From positions 1 through 23,012 of IMG/VR virus record IMGVR_UViG_3300020154_000017: DNA of 23,012 nt; one strand, 5' to 3'. The notes under the pieces were generated by a model that searched no databases, was not told the DNA's origin, and was given only the letters and a program-made list of their open reading frames with translations. Origin of the DNA: a virus. The number at the start of each line of letters is the position of its first letter. Position 1 is the first letter of the stretch. The position numbers and the translations under genes were made by a program. Positions 2,017 to 18,149 of this stretch are shown here, in pieces.

Positions 2017-2639
2017 GAAATCTACTCGTTGTTTTATTAGTCCTCGTTATAGCATGTTCAGAGGACGATGATAATCCTTATGTGTACACTCCTGATATTC
2101 CGTTTACAAATGTCTGGATAGCCTCGGAGTTTGATCTAACCTCAATAAATGGGGATGGAGTAACGGATATAAAATCGACCGAAATAACAATGTCATCCGT
2201 TCGTCCTGGAGACGAGTACTATCATTATTCAAGCGAAGACTTTGATATACAGTCAACATCAACCTCATCAACCGAATTTGAATTGACAATCAATGGAACA
2301 GCGCAAAGACAAGGCACAGAACTACCCGACGCGGCGATACATCCGGAAAAATGGGCGAATACAATGAATTTTGAAATAAGAGTGCCACTAAACTCAAACA
2401 CATTTCAAGTGATAGGGGCGCCAACCGCAAGATTTTATAGTGAAGGAAAATTTGATCAAACTATTGCGCTGGACAACTATCCAATTGTATTTGATAACGG
2501 CAATTGCCCCGGTACAGATGATAGGTGTATACTTAGTCATGAATGGATGATTGAGTGCGAAAGCAACATGAACGCAAATCCCGAAATTGATATACACCTT
2601 TTCATTAAAGATGTCCACGGAACTGAGTTTGGTAATTAA
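2013..2639 (+). CDS. Prophage lipoprotein, predicted surface-exposed
   Basis: The 208-aa precursor has a signal sequence M-R-N-L-L-V-V-L-L-V-L-V-I-A-C, giving a lipidated Cys at 15. It is followed by S-E-D-D-D, a strong match to the surface-export signal of Bacteroidota lipoproteins. The mature part alternates short strands rich in Thr, Ser, Ile and Phe, suggesting a beta-sandwich of about 190 residues. Cysteines near the C terminus (N-C-P-G-T-D-D-R-C, then E-C) may pair. It overlaps the membrane protein gene by four bases and ends the cassette. Two hairpins follow within 90 bases. No named family is recognised. The context suggests lysogenic conversion or superinfection exclusion, which is inference. 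Confidence 0.65.
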   Translation: MRNLLVVLLVLVIACSEDDDNPYVYTPDIPFTNVWIASEFDLTSINGDGVTDIKSTEITMSSVRPGDEYYHYSSEDFDIQSTSTSSTEFELTINGTAQRQGTELPDAAIHPEKWANTMNFEIRVPLNSNTFQVIGAPTARFYSEGKFDQTIALDNYPIVFDNGNCPGTDDRCILSHEWMIECESNMNANPEIDIHLFIKDVHGTEFGN

Positions 2640-2660
2640 GATTAATCACTACATTTACCC

Positions 2661-2679
2661 CGTCCTGAAAATCAGGGCG
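2661..2679 (+). terminator. Hairpin downstream of lipoprotein cassette
   Basis: CGTCCTGA pairs with TCAGGGCG around a three-base AAA loop, an 8-bp stem with one G-T wobble, starting 21 bases after the stop at 2639. No T run follows, so it is a weak terminator or an mRNA 3'-end stabilising hairpin. A better terminator lies directly downstream. Confidence 0.4.
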
Positions 2680-2698
2680 ATGAGAAGAGTAAGTCAAT

Positions 2699-2728
2699 AA
2701 AAGCCGGTCGTGAGAAAGCCGGCTTTTT
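2699..2728 (+). terminator. Rho-independent terminator of lipoprotein cassette
   Basis: AAAAGCCGG pairs with CCGGCTTTT, a 9-bp perfect stem around an 11-base loop, and runs into a T tract. It lies 60 bases after the lipoprotein stop and 17 bases before the next gene, separating the moron cassette from the integrase region. Confidence 0.8.
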
Positions 2729-2744
2729 CAGTTATCTTAGTGTT

Positions 2745-2990
2745 ATGAAAATAGAAGAGTTTGCAAAAAAGCACGGCGGCCATCCTGAGTTAGAGCAGGA
2801 GATACTTGAGATTTTTGAAGAAACTGGACTACCGGCCGACAACAAAGAGACAATTATTAAGGCGCTTCATAAAGCGTACAGTTTCGGGTGGTCAGACGGC
2901 GTCAAGGGGATTATGTCAGCGCAACAAAACGACTCTAATGATGCGTGTCGTTCCGGTGTCGCTAAACGAGATTACGACACAGACAAGTAA
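2745..2990 (+). CDS. Hypothetical small phage protein, 81 aa
   Basis: A charged, helical 81-aa protein with no recognised domain. The first 50 residues are acidic and Leu-rich (ELEQEILEIFEETGL, then IIKALHKAYSFGWSDGV). The segment A-Y-x-x-G-W-x-D-G-V resembles the ends of several short phage proteins of unknown role. The C-terminal 25 residues are polar and probably disordered. It is isolated between two terminators (2699-2728 and 3058-3097), so it is probably a single-gene unit with its own promoter. A second open frame on the same strand (2806-2994) is a shadow. Confidence 0.55.
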   Translation: MKIEEFAKKHGGHPELEQEILEIFEETGLPADNKETIIKALHKAYSFGWSDGVKGIMSAQQNDSNDACRSGVAKRDYDTDK

Positions 2991-3057
2991 ATAATTTTCA
3001 ATAGGTTATAAGAAAAATGAGGATTCCCCTACGGACTACAATACAGCAAGTAAAATA

Positions 3058-3097
3058 GGGTTGCATACAAGCTAAACGCGGTTGCAGCCCTTTTTTT
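3058..3097 (+). terminator. Rho-independent terminator before integrase
   Basis: GGGTTGCA pairs with TGCAGCCC, an 8-bp stem with one G-T wobble and a 17-base loop, followed at once by seven T. It lies 67 bases after the stop of the 81-aa gene and insulates the integrase from upstream rightward transcription. The rest of 2991-3200 shows no gene; it should hold the integrase promoter, but no clear promoter was identified. Confidence 0.75.
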
Positions 3098-3200
3098 ATG
3101 CGTTGTTTGTTGCATGCAGTTGCAAGGAGTTTGTATGTACTTGCAATAGTGTGTGCGCTTGGTGTCGCTAAGTGAATCCTTCCTTAATTCACATAAGCAA

Positions 3201-4709
3201 ATGGCGACAGTAAAGTTTTATCTCAACCATCCCCACGAAAAAGGAACCGACACTTTGCGGAAAGAGGAAGTTTCGATTGATCTTTTTTTCACCCTTAGCC
3301 GGACATCCAGGATCCGGATTTCCACAGGTCTACGCATCCAGCCGAAATATTGGAACTTCGACACACAGGAGAGCCGCGGTACTTATCCCGGGCACCAGAA
3401 ACTGAATATCCGACTCGGGCAGATGAAGCGGGATATTATAGAGTTGTGGATGTCGAGCCCTACTATATCGCTCAATCAACTTAAAGCGCAGATCATCCCT
3501 ATTGTTCGCGGCAAATCATCCACAGAAGAAAAGCCAGAAAAAAAAAGAATATGGCAAGCGTGGGATGAATTTGACAAAAGCAACCAGTCAAAGAAGAAAG
3601 AGAAAACCGTCAAGAAATACAATGCGCTGCTTTCCCATTTGATCGGATTTGAGCTATACAATAGCCAACACCAAAACCCGATTATCTTCGATATCGATAA
3701 ACTGGACAACAAGTTTGTCGAGCGCTTCAAGGAATATCTCTACAATCTAAAAGTCGAGTATTTCAGGAAGGACGGTAAAATACAGTATCACAAAGACGGC
3801 CGCCCAAAGCTGGTATTCCCAAACAGCCAATACGCATTCTATCGCCTCACCAAAATAGATGATATCTGGACGGCTGTATATGATCGGCATTTCGACATAA
3901 AAACAGATACGCCGGTACCGTTGATGGATGAAACCGTCAACAAGTACATCGCGAATATTAAAACCTTCCTGACTGAATCAAAAGGTCGCGGGTATGCAGT
4001 TGATCCAGTGTATGAGAAATGGGAGGTCACCAAACGCCGGTATCCGGTCATATCATTAACCGAAACAGAATTAATAAATCTTGAAACGCTCGATCTGAGC
4101 AAAGTTGACTTTGAGTTTAAGAAACACGCCCGCACCGATCAACGATTAAAAGCAGTCACACAAGGCCGCGACTATTTAACACAGGAATGCAGAACCGGGG
4201 CTCGGATATCGGACATTAAGAAGTTCAGTCCGATCAATGTCAAGGATATGGTGTGGCGGTTCCTGCCAACCAAGGGCGATCGTGAAAACAGCGTATTGGC
4301 CGAACTGCCTTTCAAGGGATTTTCCTTACCGGCATGGTTGACATTTCAGAAGTACAATTTCAAAATGCCGCGGGTAAGCGAACAAAAGATTAATGAGAAC
4401 ATGCGCCTCGCCTGCAAGTACGCCGGAATTACTGAGGCTATGTATATAGAGCGATGGGCGGCAAATAAGAAGATCCGCATCTACGGCGAAAAATGGGAGT
4501 TTATCAGCAGCCACACAGGAAGAAAGACATTCGTAACGATACTAGGCAACAAATACAAGGTGCCGATCAAGGTATTAATGAAGATGACCGGCATTCAGGA
4601 TATCAAAACCATTCAGCACTACCTCGGAGAATCAGAAGTTGAAGTATCTGAATATTACTTAGAACAAGCGGCGGTTAATACGCCGTCATTAATGAAGAAA
4701 GCAAACTAA
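3201..4709 (+). CDS. int: Tyrosine recombinase / phage integrase
   Basis: This 502-aa tyrosine recombinase should integrate the phage at an attachment site. Domains in order are an N-terminal arm-binding domain (about 1-100, starting M-A-T-V-K-F-Y-L, with F-D-T-Q-E-S and a final R-G), a SAM-like core-binding domain (about 125-290), and the catalytic domain (about 300-490). Catalytic residues are visible as Arg335 (T-G-A-R-I-S-D-I), His438 and Arg441 (S-H-T-G-R-K-T-F), and the nucleophile candidate Tyr474 (T-I-Q-H-Y-L). The position usually held by His or Trp before it (as in L-G-H) is Ile465, a departure from consensus. The frame is open from a GTG at 3153, but the ATG at 3201 gives the usual start of this family. 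The layout is typical of Bacteroidota elements. Confidence 0.93.
   Translation: MATVKFYLNHPHEKGTDTLRKEEVSIDLFFTLSRTSRIRISTGLRIQPKYWNFDTQESRGTYPGHQKLNIRLGQMKRDIIELWMSSPTISLNQLKAQIIPIVRGKSSTEEKPEKKRIWQAWDEFDKSNQSKKKEKTVKKYNALLSHLIGFELYNSQHQNPIIFDIDKLDNKFVERFKEYLYNLKVEYFRKDGKIQYHKDGRPKLVFPNSQYAFYRLTKIDDIWTAVYDRHFDIKTDTPVPLMDETVNKYIANIKTFLTESKGRGYAVDPVYEKWEVTKRRYPVISLTETELINLETLDLSKVDFEFKKHARTDQRLKAVTQGRDYLTQECRTGARISDIKKFSPINVKDMVWRFLPTKGDRENSVLAELPFKGFSLPAWLTFQKYNFKMPRVSEQKINENMRLACKYAGITEAMYIERWAANKKIRIYGEKWEFISSHTGRKTFVTILGNKYKVPIKVLMKMTGIQDIKTIQHYLGESEVEVSEYYLEQAAVNTPSLMKKAN
4685..4704. repeat. Direct repeat copy 1, inside integrase 3' end
   Basis: A 16-base identical block (GTCATTAATGAAGAAA), extending to 19 of 20 matches, recurs at 4965-4984, 280 bases downstream. 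Here it encodes the last integrase residues (S-L-M-K-K-A-N). It contains the perfect 10-bp palindrome TCATTAATGA. Confidence 0.85.
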
Positions 4710-5861: not shown

Positions 5862-6233
5862 ATGCCTGAAGTATTCAAGATAAGGAAACCAGCAGAGCAG
5901 TCATTCAAGAAAGTACACGATCCTTTCTATGACACACCAGCATGGCGTACTTTAAGCAGGGCACACAGGACAGCAAACCCAATGTGTGAGTATTGCATTG
6001 AGAAAGGTTATTACGTCAACGGCTACGCAACAGACCACAATCTTCCACGTAAGATATATCCAGAGCTTTCCCTCACACCAACCAACATGGCTACCATATG
6101 CCCTGGATGTGATGGAAAGAAAAGGAACATCGAAGCAAAGACTCAGGACAGAGAAGTTATAAAAAGATTGCTAAGGGAGGGGGGGTTCTATCTCTCGCGA
6201 GGTTGGGCTGATAACCGTCTTGCAGACAAATAA
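5862..6233 (+). CDS. HNH endonuclease next to terminase
   Basis: This 123-aa protein has an HNH nuclease fold with a zinc knuckle: C42-x-x-C45 (M-C-E-Y-C) and C80-x-x-C83 (C-P-G-C). The metal-finger Asp58-His59 (A-T-D-H-N-L-P) and Asn75 are visible. The third HNH position, often His after the last Cys, is Asp84 here. The N-terminal W28-x-x-L before the first Cys pair is usual for the phage HNH group. In HK97-type phages with cohesive ends, an HNH protein encoded beside the terminase assists specific cleavage at the packaging site. Its place just before the small terminase fits that role and suggests cos packaging, which is an inference. Confidence 0.85.
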   Translation: MPEVFKIRKPAEQSFKKVHDPFYDTPAWRTLSRAHRTANPMCEYCIEKGYYVNGYATDHNLPRKIYPELSLTPTNMATICPGCDGKKRNIEAKTQDREVIKRLLREGGFYLSRGWADNRLADK

Positions 6234-15346: not shown

Positions 15347-15778
15347 ATGGCAACAGTAGCACCTACTGACGGAACAGACTTACCGCTAAAGATCAGCGAT
15401 ACCTCTACAGCAGTGGAGATTGTAAACCTGGTGAGTAATTCTACATCACGGACAACTGACACGCGGGGGACAACAACGAAACAATCCGGTACTCACAAGG
15501 AGTACGTCGCAACGCGGCACGACATGACTCATGAATTTGAGGGATTGTACACTACAACTGACGATGCTAGTAAAACATCATTTGATCAACTCGATACATG
15601 GAGACGCGCAGGAACTGTGATCTATTGGGAGAAAGGAACCGGTGTAAGTGGCACTCGTAAAGAATCAGGCCGTGGTATTATCGTATCACTTGATGATGAT
15701 GCGCCTGACGGCGATAACGTAACCTTCTCTGGTTCTATTCAGAACACAGGAGATCCGACAATAACAACCTACGCTTAA
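15347..15778 (+). CDS. Major tail (tube) protein, TP901-1-like
   Basis: This 143-aa protein fits the TP901-1-type major tail protein group that polymerises to form the tail tube. Features include an N-terminal T-D-L-P-L-K-I-S-D segment and V-N-L-V-S-N-S-T-S-R-T-T-D-T-R-G. The central R-H-D-M-T-H-E-F-E-G-L and L-D-T-W-R-R-A-G-T-V-I-Y-W-E are followed by a C-terminal strand pair (V-T-F-S-G-S-I-Q-N-T-G). The length is usual. It lies 20 bases after the decoration-like gene and just before the chaperone pair, the standard order. The assignment combines pattern and position; tube proteins are poorly conserved. Confidence 0.85.
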   Translation: MATVAPTDGTDLPLKISDTSTAVEIVNLVSNSTSRTTDTRGTTTKQSGTHKEYVATRHDMTHEFEGLYTTTDDASKTSFDQLDTWRRAGTVIYWEKGTGVSGTRKESGRGIIVSLDDDAPDGDNVTFSGSIQNTGDPTITTYA

Positions 15779-15794: not shown

Positions 15795-16154
15795 ATGACT
15801 AGTGATTTAATAAAACTTTCCGGTAAAGATTACCCGATTCGTTTCGATATGGCTGCACTTAAAGAATACAAGGCTATAACGAACAACGATGTGCTTTCCG
15901 GTTTCGAAAACACCACTGACAATATCATTACGCTTGCGTACTGTGTTTTGAAAAGTGGACATCGTTTCAATAACCCGACAAATGAATTTCAGTTTTCAAT
16001 CGAACAAGTATCAGGACTGATTGAGGTTGCCGATATCCCCAAGATCACAAAGAAACTTTTACAGTCACTCGGTATTGATGTTGACAAAATAAACAAACAA
16101 GTAAAGGAAATCGAACCGACCGATGAGTCGGGGGAAGTATATGGGATAGCCTGA
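15795..16154 (+). CDS. Tail assembly chaperone G (zero-frame product)
   Basis: This 119-aa helical protein, following the tube protein and preceding the tape measure, is the expected tail assembly chaperone of long-tailed phages. It has S-G-K-D-Y-P-I-R-F-D-M-A-A-L-K-E-Y and F-Q-F-S-I-E-Q-V-S-G-L, then a long helix (K-I-T-K-K-L-L-Q-S-L-G-I-D). It ends in an acidic tail (E-I-E-P-T-D-E-S-G-E-V-Y-G-I-A). In lambda-like tails the chaperone G coats the tape measure, and a minor G-T fusion is made by -1 frameshifting. That arrangement is visible here: the tail overlaps a T-type reading frame and carries a run of five G followed by a stem. Confidence 0.88.
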   Translation: MTSDLIKLSGKDYPIRFDMAALKEYKAITNNDVLSGFENTTDNIITLAYCVLKSGHRFNNPTNEFQFSIEQVSGLIEVADIPKITKKLLQSLGIDVDKINKQVKEIEPTDESGEVYGIA

Positions 16155-16186
16155 TAAAAATTGCCATCGGGAAAATTGGGCTATCC
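16130..16186 (+). promoter_or_regulatory. Programmed -1 frameshift signal for G-T chaperone
   Basis: The heptamer G GGG GAA (16130-16136) has the zero-frame Gly codon GGG, which re-pairs perfectly after a one-base backward slip; the A-site codon re-pairs only in part. Seven bases downstream, GGATAGCC (16144-16151) and GGCTATCC (16179-16186) form a perfect 8-bp stem, extendable by three more pairs (two wobbles) around the G stop codon. The spacer fits known stimulatory structures. The T frame is closed upstream by TGA at 16124-16126, so the shift must occur between 16127 and the G stop at 16152. The efficiency is unknown. Confidence 0.8.
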
Positions 16187-16462
16187 GTCAGAGATTTTTA
16201 CGAGATGGAACTAAGGGAGTTATCCCTCGCAATAGATGGGTACAAAGAAGATAGGGCATCGCAGTTTCAAGACTTAATGTATGCTTCGCGCATTGTTGCG
16301 TTTTGGGCAGCAGCCCCACACTTACCAAAGAAAGCCAGGATAAAAAAGCCAGCAGACTTATTTGAGCTTCCCGGCGATAAGGAAGCTAAAAAGGATAGAG
16401 TTAAAAGAATGAAGCCGATTCAAAGGATAGACAGATCAGATGCAAAGCAATCTAACGGTTAA
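16133..16462 (+). CDS. Tail assembly chaperone T extension (GT fusion)
   Basis: This frame encodes the T part, read after a -1 shift from G. The frame is G-x-x-W-D-S-L-I-K-I-A-I-G-K-I-G-L-S-V-R-D-F-Y, then E-L-R-E-L-S-L-A-I-D-G-Y-K, A-F-W-A-A-A-P, and a basic tail. The W-D-x-L then L-G-L then R-E-L pattern is typical of phage chaperone T domains. There is no ATG near its start; the first is at 16205, in the middle of the conserved part, so annotation from that ATG would be truncated. The fusion would be about 222 aa (113 from G, 109 here). The gene overlaps the tape measure start by 23 bases. In lambda the fusion helps recruit the tube protein to the tape measure. Confidence 0.82.
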   Translation, partial: GSIWDSLIKIAIGKIGLSVRDFYEMELRELSLAIDGYKEDRASQFQDLMYASRIVAFWAAAPHLPKKARIKKPADLFELPGDKEAKKDRVKRMKPIQRIDRSDAKQSNG

Positions 16463-18149
16463 GATAGGCGCAGATGTAGATCAGCTACGAAAGGGGTTGA
16501 ATGATGCGACGTCGCATCTTAATTCATTCAATAAAAACATCGGAAGGATTGGAGGAATGATCGCCGGTGCGTTTGCTGTTTCATCGTTAGTAAGTTTCGG
16601 TAAAGAAGTATTCAACACAACCGCTAAGTTTCAAAAGTTTGAGGCGGTACTAACCAACACACTCGGAAGTAACGGAGCGGCAAAAGCGGCTCTAAATCAG
16701 ATCACAGAGTTTGCATCGAAAACGCCTTACCAGGTTGATGAACTCACCGCATCATTCGTAAAACTCGCTAATCAAGGGTTTATTCCTACAATGAATCAGA
16801 TGACATCATTGGGGGATTTAGCCTCAGCGATGGGTAAATCATTCGATCAACTAGCAGAGGCAATTATAGATGCTCAGACAGGGGAATTTGAACGCTTAAA
16901 AGAGTTTGGTATTCGCGCAAGCAAGCAAGGCGATAAAGTCACATTTACATTTAAGGGAGTCCAAACGCAAGTTGATTTCACCTCGCAATCAATTCGGGAT
17001 TACATCTTATCGCTAGGGCAGATAGAAGGTGTTACAGGTGGAATGGCCGCGCAATCGCAAACTTTAGGCGGCGGGCTTTCAAATCTTGAAGACTCTTTTG
17101 AGCAGTTGAAAAAAGCAATTGGTGAGGCTGCGAATAGTGGCGGTCTCTTTTCAATGGCTCTGGATGCTATCGCAGGCGGCGTTAATCGGATAACAAAAGC
17201 ATTAAGCACAACGCCGGAAGATGTAAAGAAAATGGCTGATGGCGTTCGTGTTCTTCAGGAGATGAGACGTGAAGCCGCGCGCGTAGGTGATATTGATAAG
17301 TGGGTTGAACTGAATAACATAATCAAGGCGGGAACGGAAGAAATCAGAAAATACTACGATGCACATATAAAAGGAGAGGAACAGCTCGATAAAAAGCGTG
17401 AAGAAGTAGAAAAGAAAAATCAAAAAAGGCGCGGCCCCGCACCTAACACTATGCTTTCAGTCGATCCTTCAAGGTTCGCTCCTGAAACCGGAATGACTAC
17501 CTCAACCCAAAAAGGATATGACTTTCTTGACGCAACAGCGGGACTTGCAAAAGCAACCGCCGCGATAAAAAAGAATTTTGCTGATCAGCAACAAGCGATG
17601 CTAACACATCAAATGAAGCTATCTGAATTTGGAATCTATTGGACAGAGTATTGGGCGGGAATGGGAGTCGCTGCGATCAACGCTGCGCCGATTATAAACC
17701 AAGCTTTCATTGACTTAGCATCTGGATTAGGGGAGGCTCTTGGGAACATGGCATCAGGTGTTGGGGGAGCGGAGCAAATATCAGCAGTCCTCTTAGGGAC
17801 ATTTGGTAATATGTGCGTTCAACTCGGTCAACTTGCTATCGCGACAGGTATTGGTGTTGAGGGGATCAAAAGAGCATTGCAGAGCCTTAACCCTTACGTA
17901 GCTATCGCGGCGGGTGTTGCACTCGTGGCACTTGGAAAAGTTGTGAGTAATAGAGCGGCTAAGATCGCAAAGGGTGGATCCGGTGGCGGTGGTGGTGGAT
18001 CAGTATCGGGGGGAGGCGCGCCTTCGCGATTAGAAACCCGTGATGCTGGCGAACGAATACAATTAGGCGGCGAGGTTGAAATCAATGGCGAAAAACTTCG
18101 CATTGTATTGAAGAACGTCGATAATAAAAATAAAGCAAGGCGTGGCTAG
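16440..18149 (+). CDS. Tape measure protein
   Basis: This 569-aa protein follows the chaperones and sets the tail length. The N terminus has the usual D-V-D-Q-L-R-K-G-L-N-D-A segment and a hydrophobic stretch (about 35-55, I-G-G-M-I-A-G-A-F-A-V). Then comes a conserved tape measure region with A-V-L-T-N-T-L-G-S, A-S-K-T-P-Y-Q-V-D-E-L and F-E-R-L-K-E-F-G-I. A charged coiled region (about 300-325) precedes a second hydrophobic region (about 450-505). A Gly-rich stretch (about 515-533) separates the last 35 residues. At roughly 1.5 angstroms per residue the tail would be about 85 nm, a general rule and not a measurement. The start is the ATG at 16440. Confidence 0.88.
   Translation: MQSNLTVKIGADVDQLRKGLNDATSHLNSFNKNIGRIGGMIAGAFAVSSLVSFGKEVFNTTAKFQKFEAVLTNTLGSNGAAKAALNQITEFASKTPYQVDELTASFVKLANQGFIPTMNQMTSLGDLASAMGKSFDQLAEAIIDAQTGEFERLKEFGIRASKQGDKVTFTFKGVQTQVDFTSQSIRDYILSLGQIEGVTGGMAAQSQTLGGGLSNLEDSFEQLKKAIGEAANSGGLFSMALDAIAGGVNRITKALSTTPEDVKKMADGVRVLQEMRREAARVGDIDKWVELNNIIKAGTEEIRKYYDAHIKGEEQLDKKREEVEKKNQKRRGPAPNTMLSVDPSRFAPETGMTTSTQKGYDFLDATAGLAKATAAIKKNFADQQQAMLTHQMKLSEFGIYWTEYWAGMGVAAINAAPIINQAFIDLASGLGEALGNMASGVGGAEQISAVLLGTFGNMCVQLGQLAIATGIGVEGIKRALQSLNPYVAIAAGVALVALGKVVSNRAAKIAKGGSGGGGGGSVSGGGAPSRLETRDAGERIQLGGEVEINGEKLRIVLKNVDNKNKARRG

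Follow-up and report, generated by a model that had tools for sequence, protein, structure and literature searches.

A putative lambda-type -1 frameshift between tail-chaperone genes G and T in an uncultured phage, and its counterparts in related loci

The G-T overlap and its surroundings

The window analysed here is a complete IMG/VR virus record (23,012 bases), for which ORF, Pfam and PHROG annotation indicated genes for an integrase, terminase, portal, prohead protease, capsid and a tail module. Within the tail module the genes run in the order major tail protein, G, T and tape measure, G and T forming an overlapping pair between the outer two (Table 1). The overlap covers 28 nt (16127-16154), with T in the -1 frame. 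The phage host is probably a member of Bacteroidota, because the best bacterial matches to the tape measure protein are mostly from this phylum.

Table 1. Features of the G-T region, in window coordinates
Feature	Position	Strand	Evidence and remarks
Major tail protein gene	15347..15778	+	Directly 5' of G; Pfam Phage_tail_2 (E 3.7e-7), PHROG 1407 major tail protein (E 5.5e-18)
Gene G, putative tail assembly chaperone, 119 aa	15795..16154	+	ORF; stop TGA 16152-16154; PHROG 2115 tail protein (E 6.9e-5)
T frame, -1 to G	16127..16462	+	Opens after TGA 16124-16126; PHROG 16333 (E 5.5e-9), weak Pfam Phage_TAC_6 (E 0.048)
Candidate slip heptamer G GGG GAA	16130..16136	+	0-frame codons GGG GAA; -1 codons GGG GGA
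Spacer from heptamer to stem, 7 nt	16137..16143	+	Sequence; family-wide hairpin peak 6-7 nt past slip site
Stem 5' arm, 12 bp, containing the G stop codon	16144..16155	+	Sequence and folding
Stem 3' arm, inside T-coding sequence	16175..16186	+	Sequence and folding
First ATG of T frame	16205..16207	+	Residue 26 from slip site
Tape measure protein gene	16440..18149	+	Directly 3' of T; Pfam TMP_3 (E 3.2e-11), several PHROG tape measure families

Sequence matches of G to tail-protein families are weak. Its AlphaFold model (pLDDT 74.6) gave fold matches in BFVD to several predicted or annotated tail assembly chaperones (E < 1e-3), and the weak sequence matches and the fold matches, added together, suggest that the G product is such a chaperone. 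A fold search of the PDB with G returned no significant match, the only tail chaperone (HK97, 2ob9) standing at a non-significant rank 16. On the T side, Pfam Phage_TAC_6 was matched by 6 of the 16 aligned T relatives (best 1.4e-4). One viral protein of 247 aa, A0A0K1LMC7, was a match for the G model as well as for the T model, as would be expected of a GT fusion.

Only one site in the overlap, the heptamer G GGG GAA, allows full re-pairing of the P-site codon; in the G frame it is read as TCG GGG GAA. In the approximately 7000 codons of the window ORFs GGGGGAA occurs in frame once, at this site, and GGGGGAT twice, so that about 0.004 sites of these two kinds would be expected by chance in the nine-codon overlap. 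Canonical X XXY YYZ heptamers re-pair fully in both the P and A sites; here GGG moves to GGG but GAA to GGA, and the heptamer, while predicted to work like a tandem heptamer through the P site, is not classed as canonical. Elsewhere in the window, a small ORF upstream of the terminase genes (5862-6233) contains the in-frame register sites GGGGGGG and then GGGGTTC, which could be slippery.

Downstream of the spacer, GGATAGCC (16144-16151) pairs perfectly with GGCTATCC (16179-16186) over 8 bp, and the full stem, 16144-16155 with 16175-16186, includes two G-U pairs. The features on which the original prediction had been built, namely the TGA at 16124 closing T, the 28-base overlap in the -1 frame, the heptamer, the 7-base spacer and the 8-bp stem, were thus all found in the sequence, and the stem, which had been expected to extend over the G stop codon, does so with 12 bp rather than 8. 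It starts 7 nt after the heptamer, within the 5-9 nt usual for the -1 sites that have been studied (PMC5009743), and offset 7 is among the strongest bins of the window's own hairpin profile. Taken alone, the hairpin is weak and not exceptional: its energy is -17.1 kcal/mol (z -1.74), 13 of 200 shuffles were equally good, and over 75 nt z is -1.47. The significance of the signal comes from the comparison with relatives and not from this hairpin by itself. A pseudoknot between the loop AAAAAT (16156-16161) and ATTTTT (16194-16199) was considered implausible from the loop lengths.

At about 10 nt before the heptamer, where a Shine-Dalgarno-like stimulator would lie, no pairing energy was detected in the window. 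The only stretch of this kind, AAAGGAAA near 16103-16110, was rejected as an internal Shine-Dalgarno stimulator because, at about 20 nt upstream, it is too far away. Shine-Dalgarno pairing near -10 in the relatives described below was likewise no higher than at control slip-like sites, with no enrichment.

Frame, slip site and hairpin in related loci

When the G-T fusion, G, T or the major tail protein served as direct query against viral contigs and phage records, no relatives were recovered. Around 240 related loci were gathered via the tape measure gene, the N-terminal region of which matched 80 viral loci and 47 loci in bacterial genomes, the best of them mostly in Bacteroidota (Desertivirga, Flavobacterium, Spirosoma, Chryseobacterium and Dyadobacter). 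Further loci were reached through two of these (L011 and L132) and with a T profile in genomes of the Spirosoma family. A phylum-wide search of 395 genomes gave five matches, and a family-level search around Spirosoma gave 23 in 200. Frames were counted with the T profile, and loci were made non-redundant at 80% T identity.

Of 96 loci, 92 have T at -1 relative to G; among non-redundant loci the count is 42 of 44, and a later set gave 30 of 30. A single Spirosoma arboris prophage, seen in three views, accounts for three of the four exceptions, and Cellulophaga phage phi39:1 for the other. All 42 of the -1 overlaps contain a slip heptamer in the proper register, either with two triplet runs (canonical) or with a run of four identical bases. 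Candidate slip sites number 89 per 1125 codons in the overlaps versus 120 per 4563 in the rest of G. Homologues in which T has its own start and the slip run and stem are not kept were named in the original prediction as what would speak against it; the related loci, with 42 of 44 in the -1 frame and a slip heptamer in all 42, do not show that pattern.

The slip site is present throughout the relatives while its letters vary between A-, G- and C-types. Most heptamers are A AAA AAG or A AAA AAA at the extreme end of G, some are C CCA AAC or G GGA AAG, and many relatives have runs of 8-10 A at the slip-site position. Closest in form to the window are L011, L015, L211, L132, L139, L201 and L205, which have G GGG GAG at the equivalent place, directly followed by GCC TGA or GCC TAA. 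Lambda's own heptamer, GGGAAAG, was seen in the G-T overlaps of two loci (L144 and L216).

Two cultured phages and one prophage deserve separate mention. In Flavobacterium phage 11b (NC_006356; L169, 2157-2821) the G and T homologues are annotated as the separate hypothetical proteins PHG11b_38 and PHG11b_39. The overlap has A AAA AAA in register, and for this reason a G-T fusion has probably been missed by annotation. In Cellulophaga phage phi39:1 (NC_021804; L170, 2430-2560) the T homologue is instead +1/-2 relative to G, at an A8 run (TATAAAAAAAAGAAGG), and annotation gives the pair as two genes, gp19 and gp20; this frame may reflect a -2 shift, slippage during transcription or an error in the sequence. 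The Spirosoma arboris prophage (L092) has tandem G-T units upstream of the tape measure gene (2315-3043, 3027-3491 and 3446-3817), beginning with one 242-aa ORF that joins a G-like and a T-like part in the same frame; next come a G of its own and a T in the -1 frame, with A AAA AAC. It would be a natural instance of both solutions, in-frame fusion and -1 pair, within a single prophage.

The position of the hairpin was assessed in a meta-profile of 37 non-redundant loci, in which the best hairpin was recorded at every offset between -60 and +119, counted from the heptamer end. One sharp peak was observed at offsets 6-7, with a mean of -7.7 kcal/mol at offset 6. The lowest values reached by rotated profiles averaged -4.4 +/- 0.4 and none of 3000 rotations was as low as -7.7, a result that was the same without the window. 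At offset 6 the mean was -8.3 kcal/mol for 41 sites versus -1.4 for 62 matched control heptamers, slip-like in sequence and taken from the other genes of these loci; hairpins of -10 kcal/mol or lower were found at 25 of the 41 sites and 10 of the 62 controls (P 3e-6), and the controls lacked a peak. In the C CCA AAC/G GGA AAG class alone (n=8) there was no significant hairpin peak, and six A-run relatives (L007, L063, L082, L158, L162 and L165) have no hairpin at the expected place.

Compensated pairing was observed in two groups. The G GGG GAG relatives (six distinct sequences) share an 11-bp stem with 98.5% of cells paired, in which two pairs are compensated by C-G/A-U and G-C/U-A exchanges; when the partner was slid as a control, pairing fell to 23-55%. 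Eight prophages of Flavobacterium, Epilithonimonas and Chryseobacterium with A AAA AAG have a stem at offset 6 in which six of eight pairs are changed on both sides, and the covariation score of these stems was reached by none of 500 shuffles. The conserved stem pairing sought in related phages was found as compensation in the relatives' own stems, the flavobacterial prophages being of a more distant tail type; the stem of the window has no close enough homologue, and the position of its 3' arm does not correspond exactly to that in the relatives.

In these prophages of Flavobacterium, Epilithonimonas and Chryseobacterium (L088, L091, L093, L095, L098, L099, L101 and L102) the G-like gene belongs to PHROG 19076 (unknown function) and ends in A AAA AAG CTN TAR, with the strongly compensated stem-loop immediately after it. 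Very likely these signals represent a tail-chaperone frameshift that annotation has missed, in a different type of tail.

Expression of T and the proposed ribosomal shift

In the T frame, no ATG, GTG or TTG precedes the ATG at 16205, which lies 75 nt downstream of the slip-site start. If T were a separate protein, initiated at this ATG or at a non-AUG codon near the overlap, the G run and the hairpin would be incidental. The ATG does exist, in the cultured phages 11b and phi39:1 gene callers make the T homologue a short gene of its own, and adjacent tail genes in the window abut or overlap in the manner of translational coupling. However, a start at 16205 would forfeit 25 residues that include conserved T positions (WD...AIGxxGL...F): in the window, the stretch SIWDSLIKIAIGKIGLSVRDFYE aligns with the best-conserved region of T and makes up the first two helices of the T model (pLDDT ~90). 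With conserved residues and two predicted helices upstream of it, this ATG is an unlikely start for T.

The same point can be made from the relatives that have no T-frame ATG, GTG or TTG in the overlap and for at least 42 nt past the G stop. From the G stop up to where T could first start, their variable columns fall at T-frame positions 3, 1 and 2 in the numbers 34, 4 and 3 (n=41; P 9e-11), and because 34 of the 41 variable sites are T-frame third positions, this stretch bears the mark of being translated in the T frame ahead of any usual start codon. Such coding constraint is not what an internal start would leave there, and it agrees with the original claim that T has no start of its own near its conserved N-terminus. 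Independent genes, moreover, would not be expected to keep the -1 relation in 42 of 44 loci, nor a slip heptamer and a hairpin at a fixed distance. Separate initiation of T is accordingly held to be highly improbable.

Slippage of RNA polymerase on the run, which would yield mRNAs with G and T in one frame, might be entertained for the many relatives with 8-10 A, where it is plausible. The run in the window consists of only five Gs, however, and the hairpin follows not A-runs alone but also C CCA AAC, G GGA AAG and G GGG GAR sites. Its fixed distance of 5-8 nt fits the ribosome entry channel (PMC5009743), and the preference for the -1 frame fits tandem tRNA slippage, so that a transcriptional origin of the window signal appears even less probable than an internal start. 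Least probable of all is a chance overlap with no programmed event, T being nonfunctional or made by low-level error, for although the window hairpin alone is only modestly better than shuffles, every comparative result (frame, slip site, hairpin position, compensation and codon constraint) stands against it.

Since the frame, the slip site, the hairpin position, the T-frame constraint and the compensation in relatives all agree, the window signal is very probably a lambda-type G-GT programmed -1 ribosomal frameshift. The original reading of a -1 shift from G to GT is borne out by these comparisons together with the gene order. The following account of the shift, of how often it occurs, of the steps at the tRNAs and of what the proteins do is inferred. 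Most ribosomes would end at 16152-16154 and release G. A minority, held by the 12-bp hairpin with its base 7 nt downstream at the mRNA entrance, would slip one base back on G GGG GAA. In the P site the Gly-tRNA on GGG (16131-16133) would re-pair fully, GGG to GGG. In the A site the Glu codon GAA would become GGA, to which the Glu-tRNA might re-pair partially (G-U at the middle position) or which a fresh Gly-tRNA might read; this A-site step is the less certain part of the proposed slip. There is described evidence that a slip of the peptidyl-tRNA alone suffices (PMC5009743), and G-U re-pairing has been suggested for GGGGGAA by PRFect (PMC10885494).

The shifted ribosome would then read T to 16462, giving a GT fusion of approximately 222 aa. 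The junction would be ESGG-SIWD or ESGE-SIWD, with a predicted tryptic peptide of EIEPTDESGGSIWDSLIK after a P-site slip or EIEPTDESGESIWDSLIK after a tandem slip. By analogy with lambda, G may coat or bind the tape measure protein while the T part may recruit or bind the major tail (tube) protein (PMC5009743).

Relation to known frameshift systems

If this reading is right, the G-GT frameshift reaches an uncultured lineage of Bacteroidota phages, whose G and T stand in databases as two separate hypothetical genes, and gene callers could apply a concrete rule: T in the -1 frame, a slip heptamer and a hairpin 5-8 nt later. A broader generalisation, tentatively offered and given slightly less than even chances, is that tail-chaperone frameshifting in tailed phages of Bacteroidota generally relies on a stem-loop 5-8 nt past the slip site with an exchangeable heptamer (A AAA AAR, G GGG GAR, C CCA AAC or G GGA AAG), G GGG GAR being the most stem-dependent and working mainly through the P-site tRNA. 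Shine-Dalgarno sequences go unrecognised by the ribosomes of Bacteroidia (PMC9976891), and it is hypothesised that the stem substitutes for a Shine-Dalgarno stimulator in these phages. The recurring compensated hairpin, in hosts without Shine-Dalgarno pairing, would offer a testable case of stimulators adapting to the host ribosome. Among the papers searched, none dealt with frameshifting in flavobacterial phage tails. The common, positioned and compensated stem-loop in this Bacteroidota phage group appears to be a little new.

The E. coli dnaX signal shares with the window a heptamer, a short spacer and a simple stem-loop. It differs in its gene and purpose and in its Shine-Dalgarno stimulator about 10 nt upstream, which the window and, on average, the relatives lack.

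The identical heptamer in the same gene pair is known from actinobacteriophages. PRFect (PMC10885494) treats GGGGGAA as the 'fivetwo' motif, carried by every one of about a thousand sites of this kind in the annotated tail-chaperone frameshifts of these phages (SEA-PHAGES), and in corynephage phi16 it has been proposed as the slip site, together with a 3' RNA structure, a pseudoknot, and an internal Shine-Dalgarno element that is absent at that spacing in the window (PMC5506516). Those phages infect Actinomycetota, and their frameshifts were predicted by annotation. Of the original remarks on G GGG GAA, two stand, that it is not lambda's heptamer and that its A-site re-pairing is partial; it is not, however, an unusual slip site, being the common 'fivetwo' motif, the proposed site of phi16 and, as GGGGGAG, present in relatives.

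The programmed -1 frameshift of lambda G/GT was reportedly established in work by Levin in 1993 and by Xu in 2004, 2013 and 2014. A review of it is available (PMC5009743). In systems of this type the fusion is made at a low, fixed ratio to G, and tails are assembled only with both proteins. The lambda heptamer G GGA AAG re-pairs in both sites, whereas that of the window re-pairs fully in the P site and partially in the A site. Compared with lambda, the window also has a strong hairpin 7 nt downstream; a statement in one paper citing Xu 2004 has it that downstream structure in phages has been identified only in rare cases (PMC3091744). In its gene order, the -1 direction, a putative shift just before the end of G, a T without its own start and the presumed chaperone roles of the products, the window resembles lambda G/GT.
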